From: Atopobium sp. BS2
GTDB lineage: Bacteria; Actinomycetota; Coriobacteriia; Coriobacteriales; Atopobiaceae
DNA: 64,000 nucleotides
Direction of reading: 5' to 3'
Assembly (NCBI RefSeq): GCF_000565075.1
Contig: NZ_JDFG01000033.1
Span: 62,001 to 126,000, forward strand
Below the pieces are notes generated by a model. The model did no database searches. It saw only the letters and a list, made by a program, of their open reading frames with translations, and was not told where the DNA came from. Positions 5,016-63,457 of the stretch are shown one piece after another (position 1 is the stretch's first letter; each line of letters begins with the position of its first letter). The position numbers and the translations under genes were made by a program.

Positions 5016-5795
5016 GTGCAGTTTAATACAGACAAGCTCGTCCAGTATTTCTCTGACGCACCAGAAGATATCAGTCTTTCTGATATCAATTTAGAAACTA
5101 TTCCGTCTCACGTTTCCATCATTATGGATGGAAACGGTAGATGGGCTACGGCTCGTGGACTTGACAGAACCGAAGGTCATAAGGCCGGTGTTCTTTCTTT
5201 GCGCGAGGCTGTTACTACAAGCGTGCGCCTTGGATTGGACGTTCTGTCAGTTTATGCGTTCTCCACAGAAAACTGGAAACGTCCTCAGCGTGAGGTTGAC
5301 TTGCTCATGCGTCTGTTTGCAGAGACGCTTCTTAAAGAGCTTCCACTATTCCACCAAGAGAACGTTAAGCTGCGTTTCTTTGGTGACCTTGAGGCTTTGC
5401 CAGAGAAGACCCGCAAGACCTTCCAGCGCGGACTTGATGAGACTGCGCAAAACACTGGTATGACGTTTGCGCTGGCTGTTAACTATGGCTCTCGTGCAGA
5501 GCTAACTAGGGCAGCTGTTTTTCTCGCTCATCAAATTGCTGAGGGCACCGTGTCTGCTGACTCGGTGACTCCAGCAGATTTTGAGAAGAATCTCTATACG
5601 GCAGGTCTTCCTGATCCAGACCTGTTGATTCGTACGTCAGGAGAGCTGAGGCTTTCTAACTATTTGCTCTGGCAGCTGGCTTACTCGGAGCTGTATGTCA
5701 CGCAAACTTACTGGCCTGACTTCTCTAAGTGGGATTTTTTGCGCGCCATTAAGGACTATCAGGGTCGCGAAAGGCGATTCGGAGGAGTGAAATAG
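5016..5795 (+). CDS. uppS: Undecaprenyl diphosphate synthase
   Basis: A cis-prenyltransferase that extends farnesyl diphosphate with isopentenyl diphosphate to C55 undecaprenyl diphosphate, the lipid carrier of wall synthesis. Motif IIMDGNGRWA contains catalytic D38; AFSTENWKRP and the C-terminal DLLIRTSGELRLSN with WQLAYSELY are also visible. It has 259 residues with a GTG start directly after the frr stop. The first 30 residues are an N-terminal extension before the core. It lies beside cdsA and dxr in a conserved envelope-precursor cluster. Confidence 0.95.
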   Translation: MQFNTDKLVQYFSDAPEDISLSDINLETIPSHVSIIMDGNGRWATARGLDRTEGHKAGVLSLREAVTTSVRLGLDVLSVYAFSTENWKRPQREVDLLMRLFAETLLKELPLFHQENVKLRFFGDLEALPEKTRKTFQRGLDETAQNTGMTFALAVNYGSRAELTRAAVFLAHQIAEGTVSADSVTPADFEKNLYTAGLPDPDLLIRTSGELRLSNYLLWQLAYSELYVTQTYWPDFSKWDFLRAIKDYQGRERRFGGVK

Positions 5796-13181: not shown

Positions 13182-13257
13182 GGGGAATTAGCTCAGCTGG
13201 GAGAGCGCATGACTGGCAGTCATGAGGTCAGGGGTTCGATCCCCCTATTCTCCACCA
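13182..13257 (+). tRNA. tRNA-Ala (GGC)
   Basis: Complete cloverleaf. The acceptor GGGGAAT pairs with ATTCTCC; the anticodon stem CATGA/TCATG encloses CTGGCAG with anticodon GGC; GGTTCGATC is the T-loop region. The CCA end is encoded. An extended -10 TGCTATAGT lies at 13155-13163. Confidence 0.95.
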
Positions 13258-13266
13258 CGCATTCTG

Positions 13267-13292
13267 GCGGCGGCATCTGTCGCCGCTTTTTT
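13267..13292 (+). terminator. Terminator after tRNA-Ala
   Basis: Stem GCGGCG/CGCCGC (13267-13272 with 13281-13286) followed by six T residues, lying between the two tRNA genes. Confidence 0.8.
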
Positions 13293-13297
13293 CTTAC

Positions 13298-13373
13298 GGG
13301 CTCATGGCGCAACGGTTAGCGCAGGGGACTCATAATCCCTGGGTTGGGGGTTCAAATCCCTCTGGGCCCACCA
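13298..13373 (+). tRNA. tRNA with CAT anticodon (Met or lysidine-modified Ile)
   Basis: Cloverleaf with acceptor GGGCTCA/TGGGCCC, anticodon stem GGGGA/TCCCT, loop CTCATAA (anticodon CAT) and an encoded CCA. The sequence alone does not let me separate elongator tRNA-Met from tRNA-Ile2, whose CAT is modified by TilS. It lacks initiator features such as three G-C pairs at the base of the anticodon stem. Confidence 0.9.
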
Positions 13374-13383
13374 AATACACTTG

Positions 13384-13398
13384 TGGCGAGAAACCCCT
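13384..13398 (+). repeat. Interspersed motif, 15-base copy 1
   Basis: TGGCGAGAAACCCCT, identical to 44301-44315 and 57131-57145. Confidence 0.85.
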
Positions 13399-13420
13399 TG
13401 GTTTTCTCGCCATTTCTTTT
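13384..13420 (+). terminator. Terminator built from an inverted GGCGAGAAA pair
   Basis: TGGCGAGAAA (13384-13393) pairs with TTTCTCGCCA (13403-13412), followed by a T-rich tail. Both arms are copies of the motif repeated across the window. Confidence 0.8.
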
Positions 13421-13513: not shown

Positions 13514-13891
13514 ATGACTCCTGAGACTCGTAAGATGAAGATCTTTAGTTTGACACTTTTGATCGGCGGACTTTTAGGTCTTGTTAACGTTGCGGTTCTT
13601 GTAATTGGTGCCGGTCCATCAATTGATTCCGCTCTACTTTTGCTTGCAAGTATGATTTCACTTCTTACTGGTGGTTATGCAGCTAGAGAGGCTAATGTTC
13701 CTAATAGAGCTGCAGCCGCTTATCCTATGATTTTTGGATCGTGTGTGGTTTTGGCTGTTGCTGTTGTTGCTCAGTTGATTTTGACACCTTCTGTAACTTT
13801 GCAGTTCATTGAGCTGTTTGCACTATTGGCAATGGCAAGTGCTGTTGCTCGAGGATCTCATAAAGTCAAAAAATCTCTTGAAGCCAAGTAA
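13514..13891 (+). CDS. Small membrane protein, unknown function
   Basis: A 125-residue protein with about four predicted membrane helices: residues about 10-32, 38-55, 68-92 and 97-112. It has a short basic N-terminus and a lysine-rich tail. I do not recognise a family. AGGGGA lies 4-9 bases before the ATG. The next gene encodes another four-helix protein of similar size in the same orientation, so the two may be related in function. Base composition resembles the surroundings. Confidence 0.75.
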   Translation: MTPETRKMKIFSLTLLIGGLLGLVNVAVLVIGAGPSIDSALLLLASMISLLTGGYAAREANVPNRAAAAYPMIFGSCVVLAVAVVAQLILTPSVTLQFIELFALLAMASAVARGSHKVKKSLEAK

Positions 13892-13957
13892 GTTTTTTAT
13901 TGTTCTAGCTCCGGTTGTGTACGGTTTTCTTTGTGAACTGACTTGTTGGGGGTTTGT

Positions 13958-14365
13958 ATGGATCGTGGAACTAAGTTGATGATGGCGCTTTCCTCTATGC
14001 TTGGCGCGCTTGGCGTTGCCGGTATTGTCATCTTTGCCTTCTCAGTTGGCTATGGCCGTTTCTCTTCCAGCATGATTGTGCTTCTCATGTGCAGCTTAAT
14101 GTCGGTTTATTGCTGCTATATTCTGCAGAAATGCATTAGTTTGGCCAAAGATTTTGAGAAAACCCACGGTATTGTTCGTCTTGTAGCCGGTGTTGTACTC
14201 ATTCTCTTTACTATTGAATGGGTCTTTGTTTCACAGCTTGCTTCTCAGCCAATGGTAATTGCACCAATGATTCTTCAGCTTATCTTCTTGGGAATCATTC
14301 TTGTTCAGATGAATAAGACTGTATCTACGTATTCACCGTCAAAAAAGTCAAAAGCTAGAAATTAG
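13958..14365 (+). CDS. Small membrane protein, unknown function
   Basis: A 135-residue protein with about four hydrophobic helices (about 8-32, 38-58, 72-92 and 98-118) and a basic, lysine-rich C-terminal tail (SPSKKSKARN). I do not recognise a family. ATG 13958 has GGGGG five bases upstream; a TTG at 13943 in the same frame lacks such a site. It lies between another small membrane protein gene and tRNA-Val. Confidence 0.75.
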   Translation: MDRGTKLMMALSSMLGALGVAGIVIFAFSVGYGRFSSSMIVLLMCSLMSVYCCYILQKCISLAKDFEKTHGIVRLVAGVVLILFTIEWVFVSQLASQPMVIAPMILQLIFLGIILVQMNKTVSTYSPSKKSKARN

Positions 14366-14994: not shown

Positions 14995-15027
14995 CCTTAC
15001 TTCCATCAAACTCAACTGACGATTTTT

Positions 15028-15072
15028 AGCGAGAAGACCTTTCAAGCACAAGGGTCTTCTCGCTATTTTTTT
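15028..15072 (+). terminator. Terminator of the VOC gene
   Basis: 12-bp stem AGCGAGAAGACC/GGTCTTCTCGCT followed by A and seven T residues. The arms carry a one-base variant of the GGCGAGAA motif. Confidence 0.92.
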
Positions 15073-18235: not shown

Positions 18236-18916
18236 GTGCCAACTGCTTTAACATCAGTTCCATCGCTTTTGACAACGCTCGCTGAATTTGCACTGGTAAT
18301 CTTTGCCATTGTGGTTCACGAGGTTGCGCATGGCTTTGTGGCATACAAGTGCGGAGATCCTACCGCTAAAATGTCTGGCCGTTTGACGCTCAATCCACTG
18401 GCACACATTGACTTGTTCGGTACGGTTCTTTTGCCGTTTATGTTGGTATTGATGGGCGGTCCTAGCTTTGGTTACGCAAAGCCCGTTCCCTATAACCCCA
18501 ACTACCTCAAAAATCGTCGTCGTGACGAGATTCTGGTAGCGCTTGCAGGACCTACTTCCAATATTTTACAGGCATTTCTCGGCGCACTGTTGCTGCGTTT
18601 GCTTAACGCGGTAAGCATTGCTTTTGGCACGGCTTTAAATCCGCTGATAATGTACTACGTTTCTTCGCTGGTAATCTTCTACATTCAGATTAACGTAAGC
18701 CTGGCAGTCTTTAACATGCTGCCAATTCCGCCTTTGGACGGATCTAAGCTGCTACTCTATTTTCTTGGCGAGAAAAACCGTCAAAAGTTCTACGCCATTG
18801 AGCCTTACTGTATGATTGCTGTAGTGGGACTCATGTTCTTTGCGCCTGGCTTTTTCTCGTCCATTATTGGGGGCATTTCTAACGTCATTTTGAGCCTGCT
18901 TGCGAGAATCATCTAA
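18236..18916 (+). CDS. Site-2 protease family protein (M50, short form)
   Basis: A 226-residue membrane metalloprotease of the short M50B type without a PDZ domain. The zinc site HEVAH is in the first membrane segment, followed by GRLTLNPLAHIDLFGT, a feature of this subgroup. The second motif NMLPIPPLDGSK carries the aspartate ligand. GTG 18236 has AAGGA five bases before it; the frame is open to 18140, but those residues look non-coding. The stop overlaps scpA by one base. M50-scpA-scpB-rluB order is frequent in Gram-positive bacteria. Substrate unknown. Confidence 0.9.
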   Translation: MPTALTSVPSLLTTLAEFALVIFAIVVHEVAHGFVAYKCGDPTAKMSGRLTLNPLAHIDLFGTVLLPFMLVLMGGPSFGYAKPVPYNPNYLKNRRRDEILVALAGPTSNILQAFLGALLLRLLNAVSIAFGTALNPLIMYYVSSLVIFYIQINVSLAVFNMLPIPPLDGSKLLLYFLGEKNRQKFYAIEPYCMIAVVGLMFFAPGFFSSIIGGISNVILSLLARII

Positions 18917-39355: not shown

Positions 39356-39367
39356 GGGTTTCTCGCC
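39356..39367 (-). repeat. Interspersed motif, 12-base copy (minus strand)
   Basis: GGCGAGAAACCC read on the minus strand. It forms an inverted pair with GGCGAGAAA at 39401-39409 around the tRNA-Pro terminator. Confidence 0.85.
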
Positions 39368-39380
39368 CTGTTTAGATAAT

Positions 39381-39403
39381 AAAAAGCCAGGAATACTCCT
39401 GGC
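39381..39403 (-). terminator. Terminator of tRNA-Pro
   Basis: On the minus strand GCCAGGA/TCCTGGC (loop GTAT) is followed by five T residues. Confidence 0.85.
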
Positions 39404-39412
39404 GAGAAATTC

Positions 39413-44300: not shown

Positions 44301-44315
44301 TGGCGAGAAACCCCT
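44301..44315 (+). repeat. Interspersed motif, 15-base copy 2
   Basis: TGGCGAGAAACCCCT, one base after the hcp stop and upstream of its terminator. Confidence 0.85.
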
Positions 44316-53599: not shown

Positions 53600-54997
53600 A
53601 TGAATATTTACGACCACTTTGCTCACGAGGATGAATATCCAGAGCTCAACATAGAGGCAATGTCTGAGAGACTTGCAAAGGCGCTGTCTTTTAAGACGGT
53701 GTATACCGATGCAGAGACAACCGATTGGTCTCAGTTTGATGGTCTTCAACAGCACATTGTTGATAGCTTTCCGTATGTTATGACCGCGGCCTCTAACGTT
53801 GAAGTAGTTGGTCACTCGCTCCTCATTGAGATTCCAGGATCCAACCCCAAACTTCCTGCATTGATGCTCATTGCTCACCAGGATGTGGTTCCTGTTGTTC
53901 CTGGTACAGAAGACGCATGGACGCACGATCCCTTTGGTGGAGATGTCGACGACACGTACATTTGGGGACGTGGTGCACTTGATATCAAAGACATGCTTAT
54001 GGGTGAGCTTGAGGCGCTTGAGTATCTGCTTTCACAGGGTTTCTCGCCAAGGCGCTCTATCTACCTGGCATTTGGCGAGGATGAGGAGGTTTTGAGCCAC
54101 GGCGCCACCAAGCTTGCGGAGGTCATGGCCTCGCGAGAAATGCGTGCAGCATGTCTGTTGGACGAGGGCACCACTACGTTTTTTGATGGCAGCGCTTACG
54201 GTGCGCCTAAGGCTACCGTGGCCGACATCTGCATCTCGCAAAAGGGGTTCTTGAACGTTAGACTTACTGCACCTGGCCATGGTGGACATTCCTCAAATCC
54301 ATTTGGTGGAACCTCGCTTGAGCATTTGAGCTGCGCACTAGCCGCTCTCTCTGAGGCTAAACCTCAGCCTGAGCTTAACGATATTGTTAAAGAAACCTTT
54401 AAGGTTCTTGCACCAGAAATTACCGATGAACCTTTTGCTTCTCTGGTGTGTGACGTAGATACAAATGCAGATAAGATTGCGCATGCTGCAGCCCAGATCA
54501 AAGAGCTCTATCCCTTTGTTACTACAACATATGCTTTCAATATGCTTGAGGGTTCAAGCAGTGCGGCTAACGTTATGCCTGGTAATGTCAGCGCAACTAT
54601 CAACATCAGGCTGCTTCCAGGTGTTAGTGTTGAAGAGACCCTTGAACACATCAAACAAGTAGTAGCCCAAGTTAACCCTTATATTGAGGTTGAAGCTTTG
54701 CACTCAACTCCAGCAGGAAGAATCGATTCTCCAACTGGAGCTGGCTATCAAGAGCTCAAATCCATTATGGAACACTATCATCCAGGTGTTACCTTTGTTC
54801 CGTCATTTGTGTGCGGTGGTACCGATTCTGTTCGATACGAGGGAATTTGCGATTCCATTCTGCGTATTTGTCCGTTTAGGCCAACACCAGAAGATGAGGC
54901 AAATGGCGTTCATGGCATTGATGAGCGCATCGAAAAACGCGTTTATACTCAGGGTGTTCGTGTTCTTATTTCCTTTGTTAAACAAATGTGCCAATAA
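53600..54997 (+). CDS. M20-family metallopeptidase
   Basis: A 465-residue di-zinc peptidase of the M20/M25/M40 group, closest in layout to carboxypeptidase S/PM20D1. First metal motif LIAHQDVVPVVP; the bridging aspartate in WGRGALDIKDM; catalytic EDEE in FGEDEEVLSHG; H and E ligands in later segments; dimerisation domain about 225-345. It is probably an intracellular dipeptidase or N-acyl-amino-acid hydrolase. GAGG precedes the ATG. A -10-like element lies in the 70 bases before pgsA, so pgsA may have its own promoter. Confidence 0.9.
   Translation: MNIYDHFAHEDEYPELNIEAMSERLAKALSFKTVYTDAETTDWSQFDGLQQHIVDSFPYVMTAASNVEVVGHSLLIEIPGSNPKLPALMLIAHQDVVPVVPGTEDAWTHDPFGGDVDDTYIWGRGALDIKDMLMGELEALEYLLSQGFSPRRSIYLAFGEDEEVLSHGATKLAEVMASREMRAACLLDEGTTTFFDGSAYGAPKATVADICISQKGFLNVRLTAPGHGGHSSNPFGGTSLEHLSCALAALSEAKPQPELNDIVKETFKVLAPEITDEPFASLVCDVDTNADKIAHAAAQIKELYPFVTTTYAFNMLEGSSSAANVMPGNVSATINIRLLPGVSVEETLEHIKQVVAQVNPYIEVEALHSTPAGRIDSPTGAGYQELKSIMEHYHPGVTFVPSFVCGGTDSVRYEGICDSILRICPFRPTPEDEANGVHGIDERIEKRVYTQGVRVLISFVKQMCQ
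54037..54048 (-). repeat. Interspersed motif, 12-base copy (minus strand)
   Basis: GGCGAGAAACCC on the minus strand, inside the M20 peptidase gene. Confidence 0.8.
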
Positions 54998-57030: not shown

Positions 57031-57872
57031 TGTCTGAGCAGAAACGCTCTATCCTTCATACCGAGCTTGAATATCTTGGCGCACAATTCTCAACCTCAAC
57101 TGAAGGCTTCAACTTAGCCCAATCTTTCTATGGCGAGAAACCCCTTGAGGAAGCTCTGAAAGATTGCGCTCTTATTGACCTGAGTGGTATCGGCTACACG
57201 CTTGTAAGTGGAGTTGCAGCTCAAAATTTTGTTGAAGCTGTCTTTGCAGGTAAACAGCTTGAGGCAGGAGAGACTTCATTTGAGTGTGCACTTACGGGAG
57301 ACGGATCTCTGTCTTCCATCAGTCTTCTCGCGCGCTCTGGTCAAAACGAGTACGTGGTACTTGATGCATCTGAGCGCTCTCTTGTTCTAGACGAGTGGCT
57401 TTCTATCATTGCGTCTGTCGAACAAAACGGTGTAGCTCCTTATGCAGAAGTGTCTTTAGAAGACGCAACTCCGCTGCTTACTCCGCTTCTTCTTGCTGGT
57501 AAAAAGGCCAAGAAGGTCCTTATGGACTACCTGGGAGAACAGAGACTTCCAGAAGACTCAAAGCTTTGTAATCTTATGCTTGACCAAACAATCCCTGCAC
57601 TTGTGGCCAATGTTTCAACCAAGAAAGTTCCCGCGTATCTGGTTATGGTCCCACCGGTACATACGGTAATTCTTTTTAGAAGCTTGCTTTCTTTTGAAAC
57701 AGTCCATCCTCTTGGACATAAGCAACTCATTGAAGGCCTTAAAACATATCTTCCATGGTTTTCAGAACTTGCAAGTAACACTAAAGTAGTAGTAGCTAAA
57801 GATAAACTTGAGGGTTGGGGTTTACTTAGAGCCTCTGATGATTTCATTGGCGCAAGGGGTGATCTTCTATGA
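57030..57872 (+). CDS. GcvT-like folate-binding-domain protein, unknown function
   Basis: A 280-residue protein with the fold pattern of the aminomethyltransferase GcvT and related YgfZ proteins. ALIDLSGIGYTLVSG matches the first motif region, and a TGDGSLSSISLLAR segment follows. The KGCYxGQ motif of YgfZ is absent, and the C-terminal domain of GcvT is incomplete. A folate-dependent transfer reaction is possible but not shown. It overlaps dacA by one base and ridA by four (ATGA), so translation is coupled. It carries a 15-base copy of the GGCGAGAA motif. Confidence 0.6.
   Translation: MSEQKRSILHTELEYLGAQFSTSTEGFNLAQSFYGEKPLEEALKDCALIDLSGIGYTLVSGVAAQNFVEAVFAGKQLEAGETSFECALTGDGSLSSISLLARSGQNEYVVLDASERSLVLDEWLSIIASVEQNGVAPYAEVSLEDATPLLTPLLLAGKKAKKVLMDYLGEQRLPEDSKLCNLMLDQTIPALVANVSTKKVPAYLVMVPPVHTVILFRSLLSFETVHPLGHKQLIEGLKTYLPWFSELASNTKVVVAKDKLEGWGLLRASDDFIGARGDLL
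57131..57145 (+). repeat. Interspersed motif, 15-base copy 3
   Basis: TGGCGAGAAACCCCT, within a coding region (reads GEKPL). Confidence 0.85.
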
Positions 57873-61870: not shown

Positions 61871-63457
61871 GTGGCGTTTCATCTCAAACATAAGACAAAC
61901 GTTATTGAGCGTCATTTTTCTCGTAGGTTTCAGGTAGCTCTCATTGGAGAAGGCCTGCTTGTTGGCTTTTTGGGTGGCGGCGTAGTCACACTGTATCGCC
62001 TTTGTCTTTCTTTTGCAGAAGCTCAGATGCGCTCCATTACTCAATCAATCGCAGGTAATTGGCCTTATATGGCTCTCTGGTTTGGTGTTCTGATTATTCT
62101 TATGGCGGCCGTTTGCCTACTCATGAAGTTTGAGCCCTACACCGCAGGCTCTGGAATCCCTCAGACCAATGCTGAGGTCATGGGATCTGCCGATATGCCC
62201 TGGTATCGCGTTCTTCCTGTTAAGTTTATCCAGGGCGTTCTAGTTGCCTTTGGTGGCCTTTCTATGGGTCGAGAAGGCCCAGCAGTCCAGTTAGGCGCTG
62301 TTTCTGGTAAAGCGGTCTCAAAATTCCTTAAACGCAAAAGGGGAGAAGAACGTCTTCTGGTAACCTGTGGCGCAGCTGCGGGTATGTCAGCCGCTTTTCA
62401 TGCCCCTCTCACCGGCACACTTTTTGCTATCGAAGAGATTCAGAAAGAGTTTCATGCTCCACTGATTATCTCGGCAATGACCGCATCAGTAGGCGCTGAC
62501 TTCCTGGTTTCTAACGTCCTTGGTATGAAGCCTGTCCTTCAGCTTCCTTACGTAGCACCATTACCTCATGTCGACTTTGCATTTGTTCTTATCGTCGGTT
62601 TTATCTGTGGTTTATTAGGAGCGCTCCACAATAAGGGAATGTTCTTTGCCCAGGGGCTGTACAAAAAGATAACTAAGTTTGTGCCTTTCTCGAGGCTCAT
62701 TATTCCATTCATGCTAGCTGGAATTATGGCTTTTATCTGGCCAGATCTTCTTTGTGGCGGTGACGCCATTATCGAGAAAATCAAAGAGCCAGCAACACTT
62801 ACTGAGCTCATGGTTATAGCGCTTTTGCTGGGCAAATATTTCTTTACCACAACATGTTTTGCTGCTGGAACGCCTGGCGGAACTCTCTTTCCGATGGTTG
62901 TTATGGGAACGCTAGTTGGAACGCTGTTTGCCCTGGTAGCAACCCATATTTTTGGCATCCCGATGGCATATGCGCCAAACTTTATTGCCATGGGTGTTGC
63001 GGGCATTTTTGCTGGAGCAGTAAGAGCGCCCGTCACCGGAGTAGTGCTCATATTTGAGCTCACAGGTTCTCTTGAAGCTCTTATGGCTATGTCTGCAGTT
63101 GCAATCGTATCCTATGTAACCGCAAACATCCTACGTGTTGACCCATTCTACGAGCACTTACTTGCAGAATTCTTGGCTTCTCAGCAAGGGGAGTCTAAAC
63201 CAACACTTGATTCTGGCGAGAAAATCCTTCATGAGTTCACTATTGGCCAAGGAAGTCCCATTGAGGGCAAATTGCTCCAAGATATCCCATGGCCTGACAA
63301 AGTGAGGGTTGTAACTATTGATCGTGCGGGCTTGGAGATTATTCCAACCGGCCAAACTGAATTGATGGCACTCGACAAGATTCTTGTAATTTTTGATGAG
63401 ATGTATGAAAGCGATGTCATGATTAAATTGAATGTCATGACCGACTCATCGGTATAG
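61871..63457 (+). CDS. ClC-type chloride channel/transporter with TrkA-C-like tail
   Basis: A 528-residue membrane protein. Anion-selectivity motifs are GSGIPQ, GREGPAVQ (gating glutamate present) and GTPGGTLFPM. The FAIEEI segment holds the second glutamate, typical of H+/Cl- antiporters. About ten or more membrane helices span 25-430. The C-terminal part (about 450-528) resembles a TrkA-C regulatory domain (IDRAGLEIIPTGQTELMALDKILVIF). GTG 61871 has AGGGGAG upstream. Likely a role in acid resistance or ion balance. Confidence 0.92.
   Translation: MAFHLKHKTNVIERHFSRRFQVALIGEGLLVGFLGGGVVTLYRLCLSFAEAQMRSITQSIAGNWPYMALWFGVLIILMAAVCLLMKFEPYTAGSGIPQTNAEVMGSADMPWYRVLPVKFIQGVLVAFGGLSMGREGPAVQLGAVSGKAVSKFLKRKRGEERLLVTCGAAAGMSAAFHAPLTGTLFAIEEIQKEFHAPLIISAMTASVGADFLVSNVLGMKPVLQLPYVAPLPHVDFAFVLIVGFICGLLGALHNKGMFFAQGLYKKITKFVPFSRLIIPFMLAGIMAFIWPDLLCGGDAIIEKIKEPATLTELMVIALLLGKYFFTTTCFAAGTPGGTLFPMVVMGTLVGTLFALVATHIFGIPMAYAPNFIAMGVAGIFAGAVRAPVTGVVLIFELTGSLEALMAMSAVAIVSYVTANILRVDPFYEHLLAEFLASQQGESKPTLDSGEKILHEFTIGQGSPIEGKLLQDIPWPDKVRVVTIDRAGLEIIPTGQTELMALDKILVIFDEMYESDVMIKLNVMTDSSV

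Follow-up and report, generated by a model that had tools for sequence, protein, structure and literature searches.

A short motif with the core CGAGAARnnC recurs throughout the genome that contains the window (the whole 64-kb stretch of DNA analysed here), and we propose that it is probably a DNA-uptake sequence of the Coriobacteriales, a putative assignment made from sequence. The best explanation is an uptake-sequence system that is independent of the Neisseria DUS and the Pasteurellaceae USS and for which terminators are one tolerated site. The initial annotation of this DNA had leaned on terminators in raising the idea of an uptake sequence. Terminators by themselves make a weak argument, and the idea is partly supported, mainly by other marks: high copy number, lack of replication-strand bias, presence in genes with enrichment between them, dialects that share the core, conservation, scarcity in stretches with phage genes, and encoded competence machinery (comEA, comEC and a Tad set), together with inverted pairs at terminators in this genus.

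In the 383 kb of this genome sampled for word counts, the window among them, copies follow the consensus TGGCGAGAARnnC; the final C is present in 73% of those with the core CGAGAA and in 88% of those with the core GGCGAGAA, and the flanks carry a weak signal rich in A and T. The top words of this sample are TGGCGAGAA (104 copies against 4.2 expected, z 48) and CGAGAAACCC (47 against 0.5). Over the whole 1.6-Mb genome GGCGAGAARNNC occurs 626 times, or ~0.4 per kb, and its reversed pattern 17 times, while TGGCGAGAA occurs 499 times and the reversed word 41 times; all four congeners analysed contain 453–516 copies of GGCGAGAARNNC. In the window, the 10-mer TGGCGAGAAA has 31 matches with at most one mismatch against 4.3 expected, a number reached in none of 100 shuffles. 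Besides the hairpins described below, these include the following features:

18766–18775, + strand: single motif copy TGGCGAGAAA, exact match
39359–39409, no strand assigned: outward-facing motif pair GGGTTTCTCGCCC ... TGGCGAGAAA beside tRNA-Pro; both arms retain GGCGAGAA in G002
44301–44310, + strand: single motif copy TGGCGAGAAA, intergenic, exact match
54040–54049, − strand: single motif copy TGGCGAGAAA, exact match
57131–57140, + strand: single motif copy TGGCGAGAAA, exact match
63214–63223, + strand: single motif copy TGGCGAGAAA, exact match

Among 6-mers, TACCAG/CTGGTA has the strongest over-representation in the window (86 copies against 22.5 expected); it is unrelated to the motif.

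Placement relative to genes was analysed in 374,699 bases with an approximate, purpose-made gene caller; the sample is 85% coding (83% before the short or rRNA-like loci L006, L013 and L018 were dropped). Of the TGGCGAGAA copies, 64 of 102 (63%) lie in genes, with 7 at stretch ends unclassified, and the density rises from 0.20 per kb in coding DNA to 0.90 per kb between tandem genes. The shorter word GCGAGAA lies inside genes in 220 of 294 copies, in both sense and antisense orientation. The reversed-pattern control is not codon-matched and inflates in-gene motif counts for motif-poor genomes of high GC content; for the codon question, permuted cores took its place, with intergenic, antisense and sense copies counted separately. 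Relative to eight permuted cores, the core is enriched 18-fold between genes, 8-fold in antisense and 12.5-fold in sense orientation in this genome. The intergenic enrichment is 13–24-fold in G004, G136 and G086, and 0.9-, 1.7- and 1.1-fold in the motif-poor genomes G084, G101 and G052; the 3.2-fold value of G077, also motif-poor, comes from 2 copies. Because motif-poor genomes still show a 3–9-fold sense and a 3–5-fold antisense excess over permuted cores, the intergenic class is the decisive one, and the 8-fold antisense excess here is only partly due to the motif. The antisense excess of the motif-rich genome G070 (4.2-fold) is no higher than in motif-poor genomes. Codon usage yields part of the motif counts, and the case rests on the intergenic copies.

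The motif occurs in dialects, GGCGAGAA or GCCGAGAA, around the shared core, and is present in some genera of the Coriobacteriales and absent from others. Unsupervised word counts in 100-kb samples return this core with differing 5' parts, namely as GGGCGAGAA in G136 and G086 and as TGCCGAGAA in G070. The GGGCGAGAA dialect is also found in G177 and the TGCCGAGAA dialect in G038, and CCGAGAAG is present more weakly in G016 and G020, without being the top word of G016. Among the words listed in these counts for G084, G077 and G101, none is related to the motif. Other words stand out in two of these genomes: TCACGGAAAAGCGCA and GTGTACACAAAT are strongly over-represented, both by overlap, in the motif-free G077 (genus g7, L054–L058), and a palindrome-like word around TCCCCGGGAA is over-represented in the motif-poor G101 (RUG13125, L084–L088). 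At intergenic copies, the two bases before the core are GG in 44 of 81 cases in this genome, 16 of 33 in G136 and 14 of 21 in G086; in G070 they are GC in 16 of 21 and never GG. A 40-kb sample of G036 (genus g33), with TC three times and GC three times among 7 intergenic copies, perhaps represents a further dialect variant.

Across 140 genomes of the family, GGCGAGAARNNC is high in genera g1, g4, g30, g16, g12 and g29, intermediate in g6, g26 and G081, and low in most other genera. GCCGAGAARNNC clearly outnumbers GGCGAGAARNNC in three genera (g23, g33 and g10); it is frequent in g4 and g29 too, partly by codon usage; whole-genome dialect counts include such a codon-driven share, and intergenic counts are used beside them. 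Identical counts indicate that genus g4, which comprises 31 species in these data, includes Thermophilibacter provencensis and the Olsenella isolates An733 and An270. The counts are 2042 against 110 for GSCGAGAARNNC in T. provencensis, where 110 is the control level. Genome G051 has 525 against 97. Outside the family, the motif is carried by G177 and G178 (f10), with GG as the commonest intergenic form, and by G038 (f3), with GC in 16 of 22 intergenic copies; it is absent from G052 (f10).

Copies of the motif are conserved between species. In 116 kb aligned with G002 at 88.6% identity, TGGCGAGAA is intact at 27 of 33 positions (random 9-mers, 36.6%) and GCGAGAA at 77 of 93 (random 7-mers, 44.8%), and four of the six changed TGGCGAGAA copies differ by a single base.

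The core is also scarce around phage genes. Stretches surrounding three phage-portal genes from three motif-rich genomes contain 22 copies in 84 kb (0.26 per kb), and nine host stretches from the same genomes contain 229 in 180 kb (1.27 per kb), which gives a ratio of 0.21; the portal stretches are undelimited and probably contain some host DNA. This ratio is the lowest of 48 core arrangements: each of the 47 permuted cores that reach 10 or more host copies is higher (median 1.07), with two close by at 0.214 (1 versus 10 copies) and 0.226 (2 versus 19). The reversed pattern is likewise rarer near phage genes, with 8 copies in 84 kb and 44 in 180 kb (ratio 0.39). Among the 50 genomes of the motif-rich genera g1, g4, g12, g16, g29 and g30, 3 contain the phage portal family PF04860, compared with 23 among the 90 others (Fisher p 0.006, uncorrected for kinship); as the species are non-independent, this contrast is no more than suggestive.

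Long motif-free gaps were considered as possible mobile DNA and are not clearly so: among 10 proteins scanned, ABC proteins and a TetR regulator (GC 0.56) lie in one gap, and ABC exporters or ordinary genes in others. A motif-free, G+C-richer stretch of 8.5 kb (L020, 5809–14287), which encodes an ABC exporter pair, a further ABC protein and a TetR regulator, has perhaps been acquired recently. Separately, a dispersed inverted repeat of ~47 nt, TGAACTGCCTCCCATTTCTT...AAGAAATGGGAGGCAGTTCA, occurs at positions 317–363, 5377–5423 and 5793–5839 of L003, in L009, L012, L017, L018, L021 and L022 of this genome, in L069 (G136) and in L098 (Collinsella stercoris). Its 18-base arm is found in 9 of 202 sampled loci, two other genera among them, and the repeat may represent the end of a mobile element or a small element of hairpin type.

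Two hairpins in the window are built from facing motif copies, one of them after the second of two adjacent tRNA genes:

13182–13257, + strand: tRNA-Ala (GGC), ARAGORN
13298–13373, + strand: tRNA-Met (CAT), ARAGORN; second of the two adjacent tRNAs, 10 bases upstream of the hairpin
13384–13393, + strand: left hairpin arm, motif copy TGGCGAGAAA, exact match
13403–13412, − strand: right hairpin arm, inverted copy of TGGCGAGAAA, exact reverse complement, kept in G002
15028–15039, + strand: left arm of the second terminator, one-base motif variant AGCGAGAAGACC (TAGCGAGAAGACC in context), read from the sequence
15053–15064, − strand: right arm of the second terminator, GGTCTTCTCGCT, which pairs with AGCGAGAAGACC (fold and terminator scan)

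The first hairpin has the form TGGCGAGAAA-N9-TTTCTCGCCA, followed by TTTCTTTT, and its RNA folds with −18.2 kcal/mol (z −5.9). The second folds with −25.0 kcal/mol (z −6.8) and is followed by A and seven T; for each of the two, 0 of 200 shuffles were as good. The initial annotation had described the former as an inverted motif pair and the latter as a terminator formed by a one-base variant, and both descriptions are correct. At 15027–15065 a terminator scan finds a match with 16 pairs, and the site has the stable G+C-containing stem, the T-run and the gene-end position of an intrinsic terminator. This pattern scan accepts loops of 3–8 bases and does not list the hairpin at 13384–13412, probably owing to the 9-base loop that the uninterrupted stem encloses. 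The T-rich tail of this hairpin and its position 10 bases past tRNA-Met make it the likely terminator of that gene. Both hairpins appear to be ordinary gene terminators made of two facing motif copies. The scan also finds a motif-free terminator-like hairpin at 13266–13287, 3' of tRNA-Ala. Two small proteins encoded between tRNA genes (125 and 140 aa; 13514–13891 and 13943–14365) have no Pfam match at E 1e-5.

Inward-facing pairs (GCGAGAA-N3..30-TTCTCGC) are in excess in each of five genomes of the genus, with 44 in this genome (G000) and 35, 31, 32 and 33 in G001–G004, against 3, 1, 1, 1 and 1 for the reversed control. In a context-matched permutation of 375 kb of this genome, 6 inward pairs compare with a mean of 1.8 (reached in 5 of 500), which scales to ~8 expected genome-wide; in 380 kb of a congener, 8 compare with 1.9 (0 of 500). 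Outward pairs (2 versus 1.75 here, 4 versus 1.8 in the congener) and direct pairs (3 versus 3.6, and 7 versus 3.9) show no clear excess. Only 2 inward pairs of the exact 10-mer exist genome-wide, the one at 13384–13412 included. In 100-kb samples there is no inward-pair excess in G136 (0, null 0.6) or G070 (1, null 0.4) and a weak excess in G086 (2, null 0.4; 28 of 500); with so few pairs, these three samples have low power.

Pair placement was assessed for 34 listed pairs which, less one duplicate, occupy 33 places in five species, some of them orthologous. With the approximate gene caller, 23 of the 33 are intergenic and 10 lie inside genes. In 10 of the 33, a protein-gene end has a T-run on its right side, against 18% of random intergenic places per given side; the pair at 13384 after the tRNA and its G002 counterpart are additional to these. 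The initial annotation had called for a genome-wide count of inverted pairs near gene ends, with the lack of an excess as the refuting outcome. That outcome did not occur, since the excess is present in this genus and mostly intergenic, although it is unseen in the small G136 and G070 samples. Inward pairs hold ~7% of copies (44 pairs against ~1,260 GCGAGAA copies, the latter a projection from the 375-kb sample). The terminator placement therefore points in the direction that had been claimed for it and is weak support for an uptake motif; other evidence carries the case.

The pairs could also be read differently, with the motif as a building block of intrinsic terminators that is selected at the RNA level as hairpin arms. 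Such selection would fit the excess over both the reversed and the context-matched controls, the two strong window hairpins, and the exact facing arm found at 15 of 74 intergenic copies (2.5% for random intergenic 7-mers, which are unmatched in composition). However, the 294 GCGAGAA copies form only 17 neighbour pairs spaced by no more than 60 nt, of which 7 face inward; genes contain between two thirds and three quarters of all copies, in both orientations; and the motif-rich G136 lacks a pair excess in its 100 kb. The same tRNA-Met provides a direct comparison: G002 keeps the motif hairpin, whereas the terminator is CCTGGCAAGATA..TATCTTGTCAGG-TTTTTT in G004 and G001 and CCTGGCAGGATTTTTATCTGTCAGG-TTTTTC in G003, with arms that are not motif copies, so that in these three congeners the hairpin is independent of the motif. 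As most copies are singletons, termination is not the main role of the motif, and that role is largely refuted; we consider this reading very improbable. Terminators are a favoured but minor motif site in this genus. Slighter still is the chance that the word reflects codon usage or a common peptide (Gly-Glu-Lys, Ala-Glu-Lys). The preference of sense TGGCGAGAA copies for the frame T|GGC|GAG|AAR (35 of 39), and the sense and antisense excess that persists in motif-poor genomes, are what codon usage would leave, and it explains part of the in-gene counts. As a full explanation it is refuted by the intergenic enrichment, which is lacking in the motif-poor G084, G101 and G052, and by the 26 antisense copies, which are spread over all three frames.

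Motifs of the Chi or KOPS type, which act in recombination or replication, are present in high copy, conserved and scarce in foreign DNA, and the motif described here resembles them in these respects. Chi and KOPS are strand-skewed, however, and in the complete congener G004 the core is evenly distributed (leading 201, lagging 196, p 0.84; GGCGAGAA 80 versus 76), based on 19 of 20 fetched stretches with L034, 60% masked, excluded. Patchy loss among genera and intergenic enrichment would also be unusual for Chi, and we regard a signal of this kind as quite improbable. The strongest rival is a chromosome-wide 'self' mark read by another protein, such as a nucleoid protein, a methyltransferase or a defence system. 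Enrichment in the own chromosome, conservation and scarcity around phage genes would fit such a mark as well as an uptake sequence. Methylation sites are usually not enriched, though, and the fixed-core dialects, the occurrence in both orientations, the inverted pairs at gene ends and the in-gene share closely resemble uptake sequences; this rival is unlikely, albeit less so than the other three.

The genome encodes machinery that could serve an uptake sequence. Contig C47 carries a comEA-like gene (SLBB and helix-hairpin-helix) and comEC upstream of holA; the best named ComEC matches are to Atopobiaceae. Contig C1 carries a Tad/Flp-like set with SAF/CpaB-like, CpaE-like and TadE-like proteins, a TadA-like ATPase, two single-domain T2SSF proteins and a 62-aa Flp-like pilin; several NCBIfam names for machinery genes score below the family cut-offs. 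A search of this genome with PF00482 finds only the two adjacent single-domain proteins and no two-domain PilC. Of the 140 family genomes, 137 have ComEC, among them motif-poor ones, and 138 have T2SSF (PF00482). Both are nearly universal, and possession of comEC or T2SSF therefore does not set the motif-rich genera apart. Their presence in motif-poor relatives means that the machinery does not track the motif; it permits an uptake reading without proving it.

We hypothesize that a candidate surface DNA receptor of the Tad/Flp-pilus and ComEA/ComEC apparatus prefers motif-bearing DNA. Transformation by such DNA would spread the motif over the chromosome and keep its copies conserved, newly arrived DNA would stay without it, and lineages would drift into one dialect or the other. 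Two facing copies would form a stem, and pairs may therefore accumulate at terminators in this genus, as has been discussed for Haemophilus and Neisseria. Cell competence, motif-preferring uptake and the assignment of a reader protein are parts of this hypothesis, while the motif with its copy numbers, symmetry, conservation, dialects, pair excess and scarcity around phage genes, the terminator folds and the comEA-comEC and tad genes are direct observations.

To our knowledge, sequence-tagged uptake of 'self' DNA has so far been reported only in two Gram-negative families. We lean towards regarding the system described here as a third, independently evolved case of sequence-specific uptake, and as the first known from a Gram-positive host or from any group other than Neisseriaceae and Pasteurellaceae. 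It would operate via a Tad/Flp pilus, and its dialects, of which there are at least two, would extend over several Coriobacteriales families, with loss or silence in others. Among the matches listed in our literature searches, which covered few papers of subscription journals and no bioRxiv preprints, there was no report of an uptake sequence or of competence in this bacterial group, and the proposal predicts competence there. If it is correct, uptake tags evolve repeatedly, sequence choice can be tied to a Tad/Flp pilus, and the natural dialects offer material for studying joint change of tag and receptor. A tag added to DNA would also give a practical handle on these commensals.

The closest parallel for the machinery is transformation in the actinobacterium Micrococcus luteus, for which parts of one report describe that comEC deletion abolishes transformation and that tad genes are required (PMC4322843). 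Both organisms combine actinobacterial comEA/comEC with tad genes and a small Flp-like pilin; M. luteus has two tad clusters (PMC4322843), and one T2SSF pair was found here. The terms 'uptake sequence' and 'sequence-specific' are absent from the text of that paper (PMC4322843).

For the motif itself, the comparison is with the two known families of uptake sequences. Like the Neisseriaceae DUS, as described in sections of PMC3630211, it is a short word with hundreds to thousands of copies and with dialects around a conserved inner core, and some genera of the family lack the word. The density is lower here, at the value per kb given above for GGCGAGAARNNC, the host is a monoderm actinobacterial order with a Tad/Flp-like pilus in place of the two-domain PilC, and the uptake system here is a putative one. 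The Pasteurellaceae USS shares the placement of about two thirds of copies in genes, below the coding share (in H. influenzae 65% in genes versus 86% coding, in the relevant section of PMC2346458). It also shares a favoured orientation in the reading frame with no general orientation bias, and some inverted intergenic pairs (sections of PMC2346458 and PMC12616744); the terminator explanation of the USS is called contentious in part of PMC2346458. The Gram-positive host and the weak A/T-rich flank differ from the USS. The known cores, CTG in the DUS and GCGG in the USS (part of PMC12616744), are not shared by the core CGAGAARnnC. As the word differs, the motif is a member of neither the DUS nor the USS, and it would work like them if our interpretation holds.
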